Source: Dehalococcoidia bacterium
GTDB taxonomy: Bacteria; Chloroflexota; Dehalococcoidia; Lucifugimonadales; UBA3495
Assembly (NCBI GenBank): GCA_002724585.1
Contig: PBPE01000086.1
Span: 1 to 42,021, forward strand
Direction of reading: 5' to 3'
DNA length: 42,021 nt
Below, piece by piece: positions 6,253 through 15,450 of this stretch. Within the stretch, counting starts at the first letter, position 1. Every line of letters begins with the position of its first letter. The notes below the pieces were generated by a model. The model saw only the letters and a list, made by a program, of their open reading frames with translations. It had not been told where the DNA came from and ran no database searches. The translations under genes and the position numbers were made by a program.

Positions 6253-6294
6253 ACCGACTACGGTCACAAAAAATTTATATTAGTAGTGTTAAGG

Positions 6295-6470
6295 AAAAAG
6301 GTATCTCCCGAGGGAATCTTTGGATTAAATGGGGAAGACGGTGTAAATCCGTCGCGGTTGCGCCACTGTGTGCGGGGAGTAAACCGAACTGAAGCCACTG
6401 CGTCGAAAGAGTGGGAAGGCATCGGTAAGCTGAGATCCGTGAGTCAGGAGACCCGCCAAGGGAGAAAGGT
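6295..6470 (+). ncRNA. Cobalamin (B12) riboswitch aptamer
   Basis: Conserved B12 element segments: GGGGAAGACGGTGTAAATCCGTCGCGGTTGCGCCACTGTG (P5-like hairpin plus GCCACTG B12 box) and GAGTCAGGAGACCCGCC, with ATCTCCC/GGGAGA closing pairing. Directly upstream of cbi genes. Boundaries approximate. Confidence 0.93.
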
Positions 6471-6546
6471 TCCAACCCTGCGCTAACAGGGACGCCGATT
6501 TGATGTCTACGGTGCTATTCTGTATAGAGACCCGTGATGTAAGTTG

Positions 6547-6585
6547 AACCCCCCTGATTGTATAGTGTCAGGGGGGTTATTTAGT
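6547..6585 (+). terminator. Intrinsic terminator between the riboswitch and cbiC; candidate expression platform
   Basis: Perfect inverted repeat AACCCCCCTGA (6547-6557)/TCAGGGGGGTT (6568-6578) with 10-nt loop, followed by ATTTAGTT. Confidence 0.8.
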
Positions 6586-6615: not shown

Positions 6616-7248
6616 ATGTCACTTGTTGAAAGATTAGCCTTACTCCCTGATGAAATAGATCGTACTAGTTTGGAGATGGTAGAGGAAACTTTAGTCTATC
6701 CCAACGATTTGGATGAGCATGAAAAATATATTTTGTTCCGAATAGTGCGAGCTGAAGGTGATCCAGATATAGCGTCTTCCGTGCGGTTTAGCCGTAATGC
6801 CGTTGAAAGTGGATTATATTCCTTGAGAAACGTTAAATCTGTCCTGACGGATGTACGAATGGTACAGGTAGGTATATCCAAATCACATTTATCTGGGCGT
6901 AATATCCAAACTAGATGCGAAATAGATACGCCAGCGGTTTCAGAGCGGGCAAAGAAAGAGGGCTCCACCAGATCAGTAGCCGCCATACGAGAGATGTCAG
7001 ACAGTATTAATGGATCTATCGTTGCTATTGGGAATGCTCCTACGGCACTTCTAGCATTATTGGATTTAATAGATGAACGGAAAGTCAACCCTGCATTGAT
7101 AATTGGTATGCCGGTTGGATTTGTTGCTTGCGCAGAATCAAAAGATGAGCTTGCAAAAAGAGATTTGCCTTTTATAACTATTCTCGGTAACCGTGGAGGT
7201 AGTTCTGCTGCTGCTGCTGCTGTAAACGGGTTGCTTGACCTGCTTTAA
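6616..7248 (+). CDS. cbiC: Precorrin-8X methylmutase family protein (CbiC/CobH)
   Basis: SVRFSRNAVESGLYSL, SIVAIGNAPTALLALLDLI and GMPVGFVACAESKDEL motifs; first gene after the riboswitch. ORF track starts at TTG 6595; ATG 6616 has GGGAAG upstream. Catalytic His replaced (see findings). Confidence 0.9.
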   Translation: MSLVERLALLPDEIDRTSLEMVEETLVYPNDLDEHEKYILFRIVRAEGDPDIASSVRFSRNAVESGLYSLRNVKSVLTDVRMVQVGISKSHLSGRNIQTRCEIDTPAVSERAKKEGSTRSVAAIREMSDSINGSIVAIGNAPTALLALLDLIDERKVNPALIIGMPVGFVACAESKDELAKRDLPFITILGNRGGSSAAAAAVNGLLDLL

Positions 7249-7272: not shown

Positions 7273-8178
7273 GTGGTCGAACAAGATAAAAACTCAGATA
7301 AACAATTGCCAGATGACAAATGTGGCATAGTACTGTTGTGTCACGGAAGTCAAAGAGGTACTAGTAAGTCGGAATGTTCTTGCGCATGGGATCCGTACAA
7401 TACTGCTCCACGATGGTGTAGAGAGTGCCCAAGTACTCCCGCAGGACTTGAGGATGCGGCGGAAACGTTGCAAGGTCTTTTAGGGTCTGAATCAGAAGTT
7501 ATTTTATCCTGCTTGGAATTTATAGAACCGCACCCAGATCAGGCAATCCAAATGTTAGTAGACAGAGGGATCAGTAGAGCTGTAGTTATGCCATATCTTC
7601 TGGGAAATGGAAAACATGCGACCGAAGAGATGGATGAAGTATTAGGGGAACTTAAGTTAAGCGCCCCTGGATTGGAGATACATCTAGCTCAAGGACTTGG
7701 TTTTGATGCTAGGTTAGCTGATGTAGTGTGCGACAGATTATTTGAGATGCACGATGACATTCCCGAAATCGACGAGGGCCCAATCGGGGTTCTCCTGGTG
7801 AAAGCTGGAACGAAAAGTGAATACGATTCATGCGTTTGGCTTCAAGAACTTGGTATTTTTGTAGAAAAAAAACTTGGCACTGGATATGCGGTTGAAGTGG
7901 CACAATCGCACTATGGGGACCCTACTATGGAGTATGCAGTTGATGCCTTGGTAAAGACGCGAGGTGTACAAGTTATTGTTTGTATACCATATGTATTTTT
8001 CCCAGGTCTAATCTTGCAGCGGAATATAGCGGGGGGAATAGCGGAATTACAGGAATTATATAAACATGTACCCATGTTAATTGCTCCTCCTCTTGGGGTG
8101 GACGAACGAATAGTTCAGGTTGCAGCAGAACGGATTAGAGGTGTGTGGCAGGATAATGAATCACAGGGCGACGACTAG
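7273..8178 (+). CDS. cbiX: Sirohydrochlorin cobaltochelatase-like protein (CbiX)
   Basis: 301 aa; VLLCHGSQRG active-site-like motif, VMPYLLGNGKHATEEMDE, SHYGDPTMEYAVDALV; position in cbi cluster. Confidence 0.88.
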   Translation: MVEQDKNSDKQLPDDKCGIVLLCHGSQRGTSKSECSCAWDPYNTAPRWCRECPSTPAGLEDAAETLQGLLGSESEVILSCLEFIEPHPDQAIQMLVDRGISRAVVMPYLLGNGKHATEEMDEVLGELKLSAPGLEIHLAQGLGFDARLADVVCDRLFEMHDDIPEIDEGPIGVLLVKAGTKSEYDSCVWLQELGIFVEKKLGTGYAVEVAQSHYGDPTMEYAVDALVKTRGVQVIVCIPYVFFPGLILQRNIAGGIAELQELYKHVPMLIAPPLGVDERIVQVAAERIRGVWQDNESQGDD

Positions 8179-8189
8179 AGTGTTTGCAG

Positions 8190-9380
8190 ATGACTAATCG
8201 TAATATGTATAACAAATCAGAGGAGAGCGATTACAGTAAGCAAACTGTGGGTCCGCGTAACCTTCGCACCGGTTACACAACAGGCTCCACGGCTGCTGCT
8301 GCCTCTAAAGCAGCTGTTATACGGTTGTTGTCAGGAAACGAAGTTCCAACTGTTCTTATTGATTTACCTATCGGAGAATCTGCTGAATTTGCCATACACA
8401 AGTACGAAGTAATCGATTCGGAACACGTGCTCTGTTCTGTTATAAAAGATGGAGGTGATGATCCGGATGCCACTCATGGTGCAGAAATATGCGTTAAAGT
8501 CTCACGTGATAGCTCCCGTGGTGGGGTAACTATCACTCGAGGAGAGGGTGTTGGTCTTGTTACCCGTCCCGGGACAGGTATAGATGTGGGAGAACCGGCT
8601 GTTACAAGAGTGCCGCGTAGGATGATAGTCGAAGCCGTTCAGCAGGCGGCTGAAAGTCAAGGGCTTGACCCAGAGTCGGGTTTCATTGTGGAAATATCCG
8701 TTCCGGGAGGTGAGGAAATAGCACTAAAAACGACCAACTCAAGGTTGGGAGTTTTGGGAGGAATATCTATTCTTGGAAGTACTGGCGTTGTTCAGCCTTT
8801 TTCTACCGCTTCTTGGAGAGCAAGTGTGCATCTAGCGATAGATGTAGCAGCTACAAACGGATTATCTCATTTGGTACTATCGACTGGCACTCGTAGCGAA
8901 GAATTTTCTAAACCATTGTTAAATCTCCCTGATATGGCCTATATAGAGGCTGGAATATTTAGTGGGCCTGCCTTAAAAAGATGTACTATGCGTAACGTTA
9001 AAAGGGCAACCCACGTCGGTATGGTTGGCAAGTTCTCCAAAATGGCTATGGGTTACTTTGTAACGCATGTTGCTGGCAATCGTGTTGATACTGAGTTTCT
9101 AGCTAGGCTCGCATCAGATTGTGGAGCATCTAGTGTAGTGCAGCAAGAAATAAAAGAAGCTAGTAGCGCCAGACATTTTCAAGAAATTGCGCAAGAAAAT
9201 GGCTTAATGAATGTTTTTCCTGTCATGTGTAAAATGGTATGCGAGGAAAGTCAAAAGCTACTAGCTTCTGAATCTAGTGATTTGATCGTGGACGCGATGT
9301 GTTTTGATTTTGAAGGGACCCTGCTTGCCAGCGCGTCGACCTCGCCAATAGGCATACCGCATCTGAATAAAAAGGATTGA
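8190..9380 (+). CDS. cbiD: Cobalt-precorrin-5B (C1)-methyltransferase (CbiD)
   Basis: LRTGYTTGSTAAAASKAAV N-terminal motif, GEGVGLVTRPG, NSRLGVLGGISILGSTGVVQPFS. ORF track starts at TTG 8184; ATG at 8190 used. Confidence 0.95.
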   Translation: MTNRNMYNKSEESDYSKQTVGPRNLRTGYTTGSTAAAASKAAVIRLLSGNEVPTVLIDLPIGESAEFAIHKYEVIDSEHVLCSVIKDGGDDPDATHGAEICVKVSRDSSRGGVTITRGEGVGLVTRPGTGIDVGEPAVTRVPRRMIVEAVQQAAESQGLDPESGFIVEISVPGGEEIALKTTNSRLGVLGGISILGSTGVVQPFSTASWRASVHLAIDVAATNGLSHLVLSTGTRSEEFSKPLLNLPDMAYIEAGIFSGPALKRCTMRNVKRATHVGMVGKFSKMAMGYFVTHVAGNRVDTEFLARLASDCGASSVVQQEIKEASSARHFQEIAQENGLMNVFPVMCKMVCEESQKLLASESSDLIVDAMCFDFEGTLLASASTSPIGIPHLNKKD

Positions 9381-9389
9381 GGGATTCCG

Positions 9390-10004
9390 GTGGCTGATAT
9401 GGGAGAGATGCTTTACGGACTTCCAGATGAAGTCTTTGAACAAAGGATGCCACTGGTTGGTCAAATCACCAAGAAGGAAATACGTGCTATCAGTATTCAT
9501 AGTTTGGGATTGAGACCAGACAGTGTACTGTGGGATATAGGCTCTGGCTCTGGATCAGTCGCTGTAGAATCTAGTCATATTGCGACAAACGGTGTTGTCT
9601 ATGCGATAGAAAAGGATATTGAAAGTCTAGACATATTAAGAAGTAATGTTCATAACTATGGATCAGGTAACGTGGAGATTGTATTAGGCGAGGCACCAGG
9701 AATTTTATATGATCTTGAAGCTCCGGACTCTGTATTTGTTGGTGGAAGTGGCGGTAACCTGCAAGAGATATTAGAAGTGTCCAGAGCTAGAATAAAACAT
9801 GGGGGTCGGATCGTAGTCAATCTTGCTTTACTGGAGCGTACGCAAAAGGTTTATGACGATATGAAGGAACTTGGATTTTCGAGCGAATTGGTGATGATTA
9901 ATGCTTCCAGGTCAAAAGAGATGTTGGGAGGATCACTAAGATTGCAAGGATTGAATCCTGTATTCATTGTGACAGGTACTTTAGACCTGGGAGAAGATTT
10001 GTGA
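9390..10004 (+). CDS. cbiT: Cobalt-precorrin-6B C15-methyltransferase, decarboxylating (CbiT)
   Basis: GLPDEVFEQRMPLVGQITKKEIRAISIHSLGLRPDSVLWDIGSGSGSVAVESS, SAM-binding CbiT-type sequence. No CbiE domain. Confidence 0.93.
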   Translation: MADMGEMLYGLPDEVFEQRMPLVGQITKKEIRAISIHSLGLRPDSVLWDIGSGSGSVAVESSHIATNGVVYAIEKDIESLDILRSNVHNYGSGNVEIVLGEAPGILYDLEAPDSVFVGGSGGNLQEILEVSRARIKHGGRIVVNLALLERTQKVYDDMKELGFSSELVMINASRSKEMLGGSLRLQGLNPVFIVTGTLDLGEDL

Positions 10005-10705
10005 GCAACGGAACACTGTATGGCGTAGGTGTAGGGCCCGGAGACCCTGAGCTGTTAACTATAAAAGCCCAGAGGGTTTTGAAATCTGTATCGGTGATAT
10101 GCATGCCTCAGTCAGAGACGAGCTCTGAAAGTTTTGCATACACTATTGCAAAAGGGTTCATAGATGAGACGCGGCAAGAAATAATGAGAGTTCAATTTCC
10201 TACAGACGATGAATCCGGAGCTTTATCGGCGTGGGTGGGTGCTGCAGAGCAGATTGCTGGTATGTTACAAATGGGTACTGATGTCGCTTTTATAACTGAA
10301 GGTGATCCAATGCTCTATAGCACGTTCTCATATGTGTTAGAGAGTTTGAAAAGTAATCATCCAGATTTGACAATTGAGATTATTCCGGGTGTTTCGTCAG
10401 TGATGGCAGCAGCAGCGAGTGCTAGTGTGCCGCTTGTGACTCATGGACAACGACTAGCTATACTCCCCGCGGTGTATGGTATTGACGATTTAAGTGAGGC
10501 TATCGCAAATTACGATACTATAGTCTTGATGAAGGTAAATCGGACTCTTATACAGGCGTTAGCGAATTTAGAACAACTTGGTTTGGCAGGCAAAGGGATT
10601 TATGTGAGACGAGCATCCACGAGTAGGGAAGAAGTCGTAAGAGACCTTAACCAGTTATCTGATGAGGATCTCGATTATTTTTCATTATTGATAATCAGGA
10701 AGTGA
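10001..10705 (+). CDS. cbiL: Precorrin-2 / cobalt-precorrin-2 C20-methyltransferase (CbiL/CobI)
   Basis: YGVGVGPGDPELLTIKAQRVLKSVSVICMPQSE; ITEGDPMLYSTFSYVLESL; IIPGVSSVMAAAA. Overlaps cbiT by 4 nt. Confidence 0.93.
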   Translation: MSNGTLYGVGVGPGDPELLTIKAQRVLKSVSVICMPQSETSSESFAYTIAKGFIDETRQEIMRVQFPTDDESGALSAWVGAAEQIAGMLQMGTDVAFITEGDPMLYSTFSYVLESLKSNHPDLTIEIIPGVSSVMAAAASASVPLVTHGQRLAILPAVYGIDDLSEAIANYDTIVLMKVNRTLIQALANLEQLGLAGKGIYVRRASTSREEVVRDLNQLSDEDLDYFSLLIIRK

Positions 10706-10711
10706 ATATTT

Positions 10712-11581
10712 ATGAATAAGACGAACGGGAAAGTTTATTTTGTGGGGGGTGGCCCTGGCGATCCAGAACTATTGACTCTTAAAGCAAAGAGGATCATTGA
10801 AGAGTCTGATGTAGTTATTTATGCAGATTCTTTAGTTCCAGAGGAGGTAGTATCTTACGCCAATGACAAAGCGGAAGTTTATGGCAGTAAAACTATGGCT
10901 CTACCTCAAATAATGGAGATTACTCTGAAGGCAGTGTCCGAGGGGAAAACGGTTGCCCGAGTGCAGAGCGGAGATCCGTCGATTTATGGGGCAATTTTGG
11001 AGCAAATGAGGATTCTAGAATCCGAAGATATTGATTACGAAATAATCCCGGGTGTTAGCTCAGCATTTGCAGCTGCAGCTGTCCTCAAAGCAGAGTTAAC
11101 GGTACCAGAAATCTCTCAAAGTATTATTATGACTAGAGCTGAAGGACGAGTGTCTTTGCCTCCAGGTGAGGAATTAAAGAGCCTCGCATCACACGGATGC
11201 TCATTAGTAATATTTTTGAGCGTAACTAGGATGACAAAAATTGTCAGGGAGCTCAGATCAGCAGGTTATAGTAAGGATACTCCCATAGCGGTAGCCTATA
11301 GAGTAGGTTGGCCCGAAGAATTGGTAATCAGAGGTACGTTGACTGATATATCTGCAAAGGTAAGAGATGCTAAAATAACTCTTCAAGCAGTTATAATAGT
11401 TGGGCAAGCAGTGAACCCTGATGTGAGACTGCCTGATTCGGATAGACCAGAACAGCGAGCTTCCTCTCATCTGTATTCTGAGACGTATACACATTTATAC
11501 CGGAAAGCTTCGCGCCGTAGCAGGTCATCAGCAAAGGATAAGGACAAAGCTGTTTCGGGCGTTGATTCAGTAAAAGCGTAG
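10712..11581 (+). CDS. cbiF: Precorrin-4 / cobalt-precorrin-4 C11-methyltransferase (CbiF/CobM)
   Basis: KVYFVGGGPGDPELLTLKAKRIIEESDVVIYADSLVPEEVVSYA; VARVQSGDPSIYGAILEQM; basic C-terminal tail (YRKASRRSRSSAKDKDKAVSG). Confidence 0.94.
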   Translation: MNKTNGKVYFVGGGPGDPELLTLKAKRIIEESDVVIYADSLVPEEVVSYANDKAEVYGSKTMALPQIMEITLKAVSEGKTVARVQSGDPSIYGAILEQMRILESEDIDYEIIPGVSSAFAAAAVLKAELTVPEISQSIIMTRAEGRVSLPPGEELKSLASHGCSLVIFLSVTRMTKIVRELRSAGYSKDTPIAVAYRVGWPEELVIRGTLTDISAKVRDAKITLQAVIIVGQAVNPDVRLPDSDRPEQRASSHLYSETYTHLYRKASRRSRSSAKDKDKAVSGVDSVKA

Positions 11582-11585
11582 GATA

Positions 11586-12704
11586 ATGTCTAAAACAGCT
11601 ATAGTAGCGGTGTCCAAAAATGGATCTTTGCTCGCTAGTAGACTGAAACAGGTATATGGAGATCAAACCGACTTATATGTCGTTAGTAAATTTTCTGAAT
11701 ATGCTAGTGATTGTATAAGTTATGACCTCCCGCTCAGGCCTGTCGTAAGTAGGATATTCAAAACGTACGATACGATAGTTATGTTTCTTCCAGTTGGCGC
11801 AGTAGTCAGATTGGTCTCTCCACATCTTAAAACCAAGACGGTAGACCCTGCAGTGATCTGCGTCGACGAAATGGGTAAATTTGCTGTTAGTCTTGTGTCG
11901 GGGCATATTGGAGGGGCTGATGAGGCAACGCAAAAGATTTCTGACGTTTTAGGGTCTATCCCCGTAATTACCTCTGCTTCTCATGTGTTGGACAGTATAT
12001 CTGTAGATTTGCTAGGTAAAGAATGGGGATGGGTCTTGGCCTGTGATCCTGACACTATTACTAGGTCCAGTGCCGCGATAATAAATGGGGGAAGTATTGG
12101 GGTTTATCAGAACAGTGGACAAACGGACTGGAGGGGGGAACTGGAGTCGCTGGATAATGCCGTGAGCCATTATGATTCTTTAGTTGATTTATTGGACAGC
12201 AGTGTGGATGTTAGGTTAGTAGTAAGTGATATGAATATCGAATCGGAAACTGAGACTACTTCTCAAAACGGTAAAGATATAGTGTTATATCATCCAAAAT
12301 CTCTTGTAGTAGGAATGGGATGCCGGAGGGGAGTTTCTGCTGATAAATTGAATGAGTTGCTAATCAATTCTTTTGAAGAATCAGGACTTTCTTTGCACAG
12401 TATCTCAGCTTTTGCAACTGCTGAGATAAAACGGGATGAACCAGGTCTAATGGAATTATGTGAAGCATATGGTGTCCCTTTGTATTGTTACAGTGTTGAA
12501 GAACTGAACTCCGTTTTCGATAAAGAGACTGATAGAGAAGATGACTTCTATTTAGACAGATCAGAAAAAGCTCATAGCCTTCTTGGAGTATGGGGCGTTT
12601 CTGAACCAGCTTCACTCTTAACCGCTAAATCATCTGATCTAGTGATGCATAAACGTAAAAGTGAATGTGCTACCGTAGCTGTGGCACGAATTAAATGGGA
12701 TTAA
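11586..12704 (+). CDS. cbiG: Cobalt-precorrin-5A hydrolase (CbiG)
   Basis: Central SLVSGHIGGADEATQKISDVLGSIPVITSAS and C-terminal VVGMGCRRGVSADKLNELL domains typical of CbiG; in cbi cluster. Confidence 0.92.
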   Translation: MSKTAIVAVSKNGSLLASRLKQVYGDQTDLYVVSKFSEYASDCISYDLPLRPVVSRIFKTYDTIVMFLPVGAVVRLVSPHLKTKTVDPAVICVDEMGKFAVSLVSGHIGGADEATQKISDVLGSIPVITSASHVLDSISVDLLGKEWGWVLACDPDTITRSSAAIINGGSIGVYQNSGQTDWRGELESLDNAVSHYDSLVDLLDSSVDVRLVVSDMNIESETETTSQNGKDIVLYHPKSLVVGMGCRRGVSADKLNELLINSFEESGLSLHSISAFATAEIKRDEPGLMELCEAYGVPLYCYSVEELNSVFDKETDREDDFYLDRSEKAHSLLGVWGVSEPASLLTAKSSDLVMHKRKSECATVAVARIKWD

Positions 12705-12719
12705 AGGATTCCTGGTGGA

Positions 12720-13508
12720 GTGGTTTATATGAAAAATAGTGGAAGTAGGACAGGACGTATCTCTCTAGTCGGGCTGGGTCCAGGAGATCGCATTATGACT
12801 ACACCCAACGCGCTGGATATCATTCGGAATTGTGATGTGATCGTCGGTTACAAAGGTTATGTAGACCAAATAGCTGATCTGATATCTGGTCAAACGTTAG
12901 TATCAATGGAATTGGGCGAGGAATTAGATCGAGCGAATCGTACCATTGAACTGGCCAGAACCGGGCGTAGCGTGGCTTTAGTATCTTCAGGGGATGCAGG
13001 GATATACGGTATGGCCGGACCACTATTCACTATCTTGGCAGATCAAGGTTGGGATGGGGTGACTCCACATGTGGAGGTAATTCCCGGGGTATCAGCTCTC
13101 CAATCAGCAGCATCGTTATTAGGCTCGCCTTTGATGCAGGATTTTTGCGCTATTAGCTTGAGTGACTTGTTAACTCCTTGGGAGGTAATAACTAAGCGTA
13201 TAAAAGCCGCTTCCGTAGGTGATTTTGTGATCGCTTTGTACAATCCCAGAAGTAGAGCTCGAAAAGATCATATTTTGAAAGCAAGAGAGATCTTATTGGC
13301 AGATCGCGCTGCAGAAACTCCTGTTGGACTGGTAAAAGAGGCGTTTCGCCCGGACCAATCTGTGTTGATAACGACCTTAGGGCAATTGGATGCTAGCATA
13401 GACTTTGTGGACATGTTTACGACGGTGATTATCGGGAACTCAACAACGTATAGGTATAAAGACAGGATGGTTACTCCAAGAGGATATGAACGTAAATTAA
13501 ACTCATAA
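12720..13508 (+). CDS. cbiH: Precorrin-3B / cobalt-factor III C17-methyltransferase (CbiH/CobJ)
   Basis: GRISLVGLGPGDRIMTTPNALDIIRNCDVIVGYKGYVDQI; VSSGDAGIYGMAGPLF; FVIALYNPRSRARKDHI. Confidence 0.94.
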   Translation: MVYMKNSGSRTGRISLVGLGPGDRIMTTPNALDIIRNCDVIVGYKGYVDQIADLISGQTLVSMELGEELDRANRTIELARTGRSVALVSSGDAGIYGMAGPLFTILADQGWDGVTPHVEVIPGVSALQSAASLLGSPLMQDFCAISLSDLLTPWEVITKRIKAASVGDFVIALYNPRSRARKDHILKAREILLADRAAETPVGLVKEAFRPDQSVLITTLGQLDASIDFVDMFTTVIIGNSTTYRYKDRMVTPRGYERKLNS

Positions 13509-14466: not shown

Positions 14467-15450
14467 TTGAATGGTACAGTAAATATATGTTCTTTATTAC
14501 CTAGCGGTACTGAAATAGTTTTCGCTCTTGGGTTAGAAGATTCTGTTGTCGGTGTTACGGACCTCTGCGATTATCCTGAAGGGGCGACTACAAAGCCCAT
14601 CGTATCTCGTAGCCGGATAAATGTTGAAAATCTCTCCAGTGCCGAAGTAGAAATAGAAATGAAGAAGATTTTAGAGTCTGGAGAATCGCCTTACCTAGTG
14701 GACGAAGAACTTTTAGCGAATTTAAATAGTGATATCGTACTCACTCAAGACTTGTGCTATTTTTGTGAAGTCGACTCCAGAACCGTCGGGAACACCGTAG
14801 CAAATCTAGGTTTGTGTCCGGAAGTTTTAGTCTTAAATCCTAGAACCGTTGAAGAGATACTAATTACCATTGAACGTGTTGGAATAAGCTGTGGTGTACC
14901 AATGGCAGCCGAAACATTGGTAGGAGACCTGCGTGACAGAATTGAGAGCATCGTTCATGGTATCAAGGAGGTAAGAGACCGTCCTAAAGTGTTTTCTATT
15001 GAAGGTGTGGATCCGCTTGTCATTGGCGGTCACTGGATAAGTGATGTATTGAACATAGTGGGAGTTTCTGCTTATCAGTCCGGGTGCGATGCTCAAAGAA
15101 TAAATTGGGACGATGTTGTCGCATACGCTCCTGATAAACTATTTATTGACCTTTGCTCCTCTAATATTAAACGGAACTCTAGGGAGGTGTCTTGGCTGGT
15201 TGAACAAAAAGGCTGGTATGATTTGCCAGCCGTTCAGACTGGTGAGGTCTATCTCATTGATCATGTGTATCTTAGTAGGCCTGGTCCACGTATAGTCAAT
15301 GGTCTAGAGATAATTGCGCAATTGACATATCCTGACCATTTTCACAATCTGCTACCTGCCGGAGCAGTTGCTAAGTTAGATACGAGCATTATGAACTCGA
15401 CTCTTTCTAAGAATAGTTCTGACTGGTTTATCCTGTGCGAGTCCGATTGA
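14467..15450 (+). CDS. BtuF-like cobalamin/metal-chelate-binding domain protein (periplasmic-binding fold, COG0614-like)
   Basis: NICSLLPSGTEIVFALGLEDSVVGVTDLCDYP...; GRPG-like end VYLSRPGPRIVNGLEIIAQL. No obvious signal peptide at the called start. Confidence 0.82.
   Translation: MNGTVNICSLLPSGTEIVFALGLEDSVVGVTDLCDYPEGATTKPIVSRSRINVENLSSAEVEIEMKKILESGESPYLVDEELLANLNSDIVLTQDLCYFCEVDSRTVGNTVANLGLCPEVLVLNPRTVEEILITIERVGISCGVPMAAETLVGDLRDRIESIVHGIKEVRDRPKVFSIEGVDPLVIGGHWISDVLNIVGVSAYQSGCDAQRINWDDVVAYAPDKLFIDLCSSNIKRNSREVSWLVEQKGWYDLPAVQTGEVYLIDHVYLSRPGPRIVNGLEIIAQLTYPDHFHNLLPAGAVAKLDTSIMNSTLSKNSSDWFILCESD

Follow-up and report, generated by a model that had tools for sequence, protein, structure and literature searches.

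The window, that is, the whole 42,021-nucleotide stretch of DNA analysed here, is contig C75 of a 2.1-Mb draft genome (72% complete, 125 contigs) that, among named genomes, is closest to metagenome-assembled SAR202/Dehalococcoidia genomes (Chloroflexota). On its plus strand lies a cbiC-X-D-T-L-F-G-H operon, the first gene of which, cbiC (6616-7248, ATG at 6616), encodes a (cobalt-)precorrin-8 methylmutase homologue of 210 amino acids. The initial annotation had placed this gene at the head of a riboswitch-controlled operon, and this was borne out by the run of cbi genes and by an RF00174 cobalamin riboswitch aptamer that precedes cbiC at 6294-6474 on the plus strand, which cmscan matched over the full-length model (97.7 bits, E 2.5e-23). 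In the gap between aptamer and gene, a GC-rich hairpin (aacccccctga...tcaggggggtt; 6547-6578, plus strand) was read by eye in the sequence and is likely to be a terminator or expression platform of the riboswitch.

The genes that follow, all on the plus strand, are a cbiX-type cobalt chelatase gene (7273-8178; Pfam CbiX, 92.6 bits), cbiD for cobalt-precorrin-5B C1-methyltransferase (8184-9380; TIGR00312, 374 bits), cbiT (9390-10004; TIGR02469, 130 bits, exceeding the cut-off of 78), cbiL/cobI (10001-10705; TIGR01467, 243 bits), cbiF/cobM (10712-11581; TIGR01465, 330 bits), cbiG (11586-12704; Pfam CbiG_N, CbiG_mid and CbiG_C) and cbiH/cobJ (12720-13508; TIGR01466, 314 bits). The same order is kept in six other SAR202 genomes that were read; in one of them (L060), no cbiH was found in the stretch covered. 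The CbiX protein of the window (301 amino acids) begins with a region rich in Cys (CSCAWDPYNTAPRWCREC) that might bind a metal or an Fe-S cluster, and closely downstream of the B12 genes, at 14467-15450, lies a gene for a Peripla_BP_2 (BtuF-like) substrate-binding protein.

Cobalamin synthesis has been reported to be prevalent in deep-ocean SAR202 (PMC11245477). The window genome also encodes CbiE, CbiA, an adenosyltransferase, CobT, CobS, CbiB, CobD, CobC, CobQ and CobU, as well as several B12-binding domains, so that the rest of the pathway is present with the exception of CbiJ (PF02571, precorrin-6 reductase). With CbiA and the later B12 genes there, whatever CbiC makes can be used further on in the pathway. 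CbiJ was absent from all 10 SAR202 genomes searched, in which the precorrin-6 reductase must therefore be a different enzyme; it was likewise not found in four of seven CbiC-positive control genomes, and thus its absence from SAR202 is not special.

A CbiC/CobH homologue without the catalytic histidine

By both profile and fold, the window protein is a CbiC/CobH homologue. It matches Pfam CbiC (PF02570) at 216.4 bits, against a cut-off of 22.5, over profile positions 1-195 of 196. Its AlphaFold (AF2) model has a pLDDT of 96.2, and the best solved structures that Foldseek matched to this model are CbiC/CobH proteins at an rmsd of 1.2-2.1 Å, with TM scores of 0.90-0.91 against 2afr, 3e7d, 4au1 and 1f2v. 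In contrast, the NCBIfam precorrin-8X methylmutase equivalogs all score under their cut-offs, the best reaching 172 bits where 276 are required (NF006136). Residues retained in SAR202 CbiC include I14, S18, D79, M82, T118-R119, G139-N140-A-P-T143, P166-V-G, E174, K176 and GGS, and the view of the initial annotation that the rest of the family signature is intact can therefore be kept.

The exception is the residue at the position of CobH His43, where the canonical mechanism has a histidine and the window CbiC has none. The gene reads ...EKYILFRIVRAEGDPDIASS... at this point, and the codon CGA at 6748-6750 (plus strand) gives Arg45. In phmmer alignments with PDB sequences, Arg45 stands opposite CobH His43 without gaps, as it does opposite the histidines of 3e7d (RVIHACG), 1f2v/1i1h (P. 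denitrificans CobH, RMVHACG), 2afr (RIIHATA) and 4fdv/4au1 (RMIHAAG), which confirms the substitution first read from the DNA. A misalignment concealing another histidine is ruled out by the ungapped alignment together with the lack of any conserved His column in SAR202 CbiC, where the best column has His in 18 of 46 sequences; thus, no other histidine is visibly in the catalytic role. Nor was a second gene found that could supply it: the window genome, at 72% completeness, has one CbiC copy, and the window cbiC is the only one in the window. Two residues from Arg45 is Glu47 (codon GAA, 6754-6756, plus strand), which the column table shows to be invariant in SAR202.

Fixation of arginine across the order

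The arginine is no peculiarity of a single gene; it is a wider natural replacement. A search of 250 genomes of the order to which the window belongs (SAR202, Chloroflexota) found cbiC in 49, confined to two families and present as a single copy in each genome, and the motif reads RIVRAEG(D/E), with Arg at the catalytic position, in all 49. The genomes concerned represent many independent assemblies, two of which (G025 and G033) are single contigs. The same was seen in every one of the 29 cbiC-bearing relatives of a first sample and at all 32 genome-collection loci. Among 45 distinct sequences the site is encoded by CGC (19), CGG (15), AGA (4), CGT (4), AGG (2) and CGA (1); because all six arginine codons are in use, it is the amino acid and not the codon that has been conserved through synonymous change. 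Those ending in C or T following CG (CGC/CGT, 23 of the 45) lie a single transition away from a histidine codon. Glu47 is encoded in the 45 Arg-type sequences by GAG (26) or GAA (19). In a tree built after the catalytic-His column had been dropped, the SAR202 proteins form one clade with 100/100 support, and a search of viral_contigs returned no relative.

Although the genome is a draft in many contigs, a sequencing or assembly error at CGA 6748-6750, or decay of the gene, has a negligible probability and we exclude both, since Arg recurs with varied codons in 49 of 49 genomes and the open reading frame is full length with zero stops. The retained residues and the confidence of the predicted model agree with the earlier judgement that the gene is not decaying.

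The replacement of histidine extends beyond the order, and the invariance of the residue assumed at the outset does not hold for the family. In the other Chloroflexota that were sampled the residue is His, except for 16 copies in which it is Tyr (mostly as YAAGD). The Tyr-type proteins occur in cbi operons of several families (L092, L094, L099, L100, L107, L111 and others), and two genomes (G298 and G123) have two Tyr-type copies apiece. As in SAR202, His has been replaced in these proteins (L092, L094, L099 and L107) within a cbi operon and in an xAxGD-like neighbourhood; they differ in having Tyr itself and Ala or Ser at the position of Glu47, and in belonging to a clade or clades apart from SAR202. 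A second Dehalococcoidia family, f51 (L108, L126; G439, G457), also has Arg at the catalytic-His position in a cbi operon, with Thr at position 47 and Leu at 126. The f51 proteins have in addition the changes N140T, M82V, F169L and GGS to GGG, none of which is found in the SAR202 copies, and their function may be relaxed. Wherever the surroundings of Tyr-type and f51 loci were read, the operon encoded at least several, if not all, of CbiD, CbiT, CbiL, CbiF, CbiG and CbiH.

Outside references in which the position could be read all have His; these were plasmid records and PDB sequences rather than a genome-by-genome search of other phyla, the plasmid records coming from Pseudomonadota, Deinococcota, Fusobacteriota, Bacillota, Bacteroidota, Actinomycetota, Nitrospirota, Cyanobacteriota and Halobacteria. 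In AU tests, trees uniting all Arg types (p 0.51), all Tyr types (0.22) or Arg and Tyr together (0.40) were not rejected; therefore, we do not claim repeated independent losses of His. No paper on a CbiC without His was found in the open-access literature.

Compared with the known systems, SAR202 CbiC resembles the CobH proteins (P. denitrificans 1f2v/1i1h; 4au1/5n0g; Brucella 3e7d) in predicted fold (rmsd 1.2-1.5 Å), in sequence (33-41% identity) and in the other invariant residues. CobH, the precorrin-8X methylmutase of the aerobic pathway, differs in having His43 where SAR202 has Arg, and the SAR202 gene lies in an operon with CbiD, CbiG and CbiX. With the CbiC proteins of cbi operons (2afr, Thermus 1v9c, Fusobacteriota, Clostridia) it shares the fold, the operon type and the presumed substrate, whereas those sampled have His and SAR202 combines Arg with the invariant Glu47. 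The SAR202 protein thus appears, from these comparisons, to be a new His-less variant of CbiC that is presumably active.

A proposed methyl shift with arginine in place of histidine

In CobH the proton donor is reportedly His43, which Shipman et al. are said to have described in 2001 as strictly conserved. Concerted pericyclic reactions need, in principle, no catalytic group. Arginine is too weak an acid for good protonation of a nitrogen; it is a permanent cation and a hydrogen-bond donor. Very few enzymes besides CobH are thought to move a methyl group by a sigmatropic route (PMC5524880, PMC5501846). The CobH reaction is regarded as [1,5]-sigmatropic and as aided by nitrogen protonation (PMC5501846, citing Shipman et al. 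2001).

We consider it probable, judging by sequence and gene context, that SAR202 possesses a functional (cobalt-)precorrin-8 methylmutase whose catalytic His has given way to an invariant Arg, and that Arg45 has an electrostatic or hydrogen-bond role. Activity is suggested because the CbiA of the same genome needs the product and no other CbiC is encoded. Arg45 would bind the right tautomer of the substrate and would stabilise charge at ring C, thereby helping the methyl group to move from C11 to C12 in a concerted [1,5] shift; unlike the role thought for His, it would give no proton. The occurrence of Tyr in other Chloroflexota agrees with this view, in which a hydrogen-bond donor, not a titratable acid with a pKa near 7, would be needed there. 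A pericyclic shift depends less on proton transfer than on orientation and the stabilisation of charge. For this reason, and in view of the Tyr types, the residue at this position may mainly hold the reactive tautomer and stabilise ring C. More tentatively, and as a fairly even possibility, the shift might need no acid catalysis by the residue at this position at all, the permanently charged Arg or the Tyr that replaces His serving as a hydrogen-bond or electrostatic positioner for a truly pericyclic reaction and SAR202 CbiC representing a mechanistically distinct class. The initial annotation had raised the idea of an altered C11-to-C12 shift chemistry, and the order-wide fixation of Arg strengthens it; we infer the rewiring itself from sequence.

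The chief rival to this reading holds that the enzyme is active and that acid catalysis has been kept, the donor having been relocated to Glu47 on the same helix, to Glu126 or to Cys172, with Arg45 tuning it. Glu47 is the candidate here, as it is present in all SAR202 Arg-type sequences and uncommon in the His and Tyr types, the residue being mostly Thr, Ser or Cys in the former; Glu126 and Cys172 are near-invariant in the SAR202 clade alone. However, the Thr47 and Leu126 of f51 and the Ala or Ser at 47 in the Tyr type mean that Glu47 is not tied to every loss of His, and the histidine columns of the SAR202 clade offer no conserved substitute. We therefore regard a relocated acid as rather unlikely.

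A further explanation is that SAR202 CbiC has lost catalysis and now carries or senses a tetrapyrrole, the shift occurring spontaneously or being carried out by another protein. The CobH fold does have a regulatory, tetrapyrrole-binding use outside the pathway in CoaR (PMC7689651; PDB 9ikt, 8x33), and a slow unaided pericyclic shift is conceivable in principle. The CoaR domain, however, is part of a MerR-type cobalt regulator, whereas SAR202 CbiC is a stand-alone protein of 210 amino acids without a DNA-binding domain, and its gene lies in a biosynthetic operon in all SAR202 genomes whose surroundings were read. Given also that the remaining invariant residues are kept and that none of the 49 genomes has a second CbiC, a dead carrier protein is unlikely, with a probability well below that of a relocated acid.

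If Arg45 does act as proposed, without giving a proton, the order-wide change from His to Arg in SAR202 challenges the accepted view of the CbiC/CobH mechanism, and the natural Arg and Tyr enzymes in intact operons are ready variants for deciding whether a proton donor is needed. There is also a practical consequence: SAR202 CbiC fails annotation that expects His or that applies strict equivalog cut-offs, and B12 producers could thus be missed.

The form of the substrate bears on the role of the histidine as well. In cobalt-early intermediates the ring-C nitrogen is metal-bound, and we offer the hypothesis that His is required just in cobalt-late enzymes, a cobalt-bound nitrogen freeing the enzyme from His. 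We go no further than this because many CbiC proteins of cbi operons retain His and because SAR202 encodes CobN, which is present in 9 of 10 SAR202 genomes although CbiX, CbiD and CbiG are kept. As CobN and a ChlI/D-like partner are encoded, the substrate of CbiC might be either metal-bound or metal-free. Markers of early-type and late-type cobalt insertion thus co-occur in these nine genomes; in the other (G011), no CobN was detected, and CbiX and an Arg-type CbiC are present. In the window genome, cbiE adjoins cobN on another contig (G000:C19; L224:8250-15077, minus strand), followed by the gene for the ChlI/D-like chelatase subunit.
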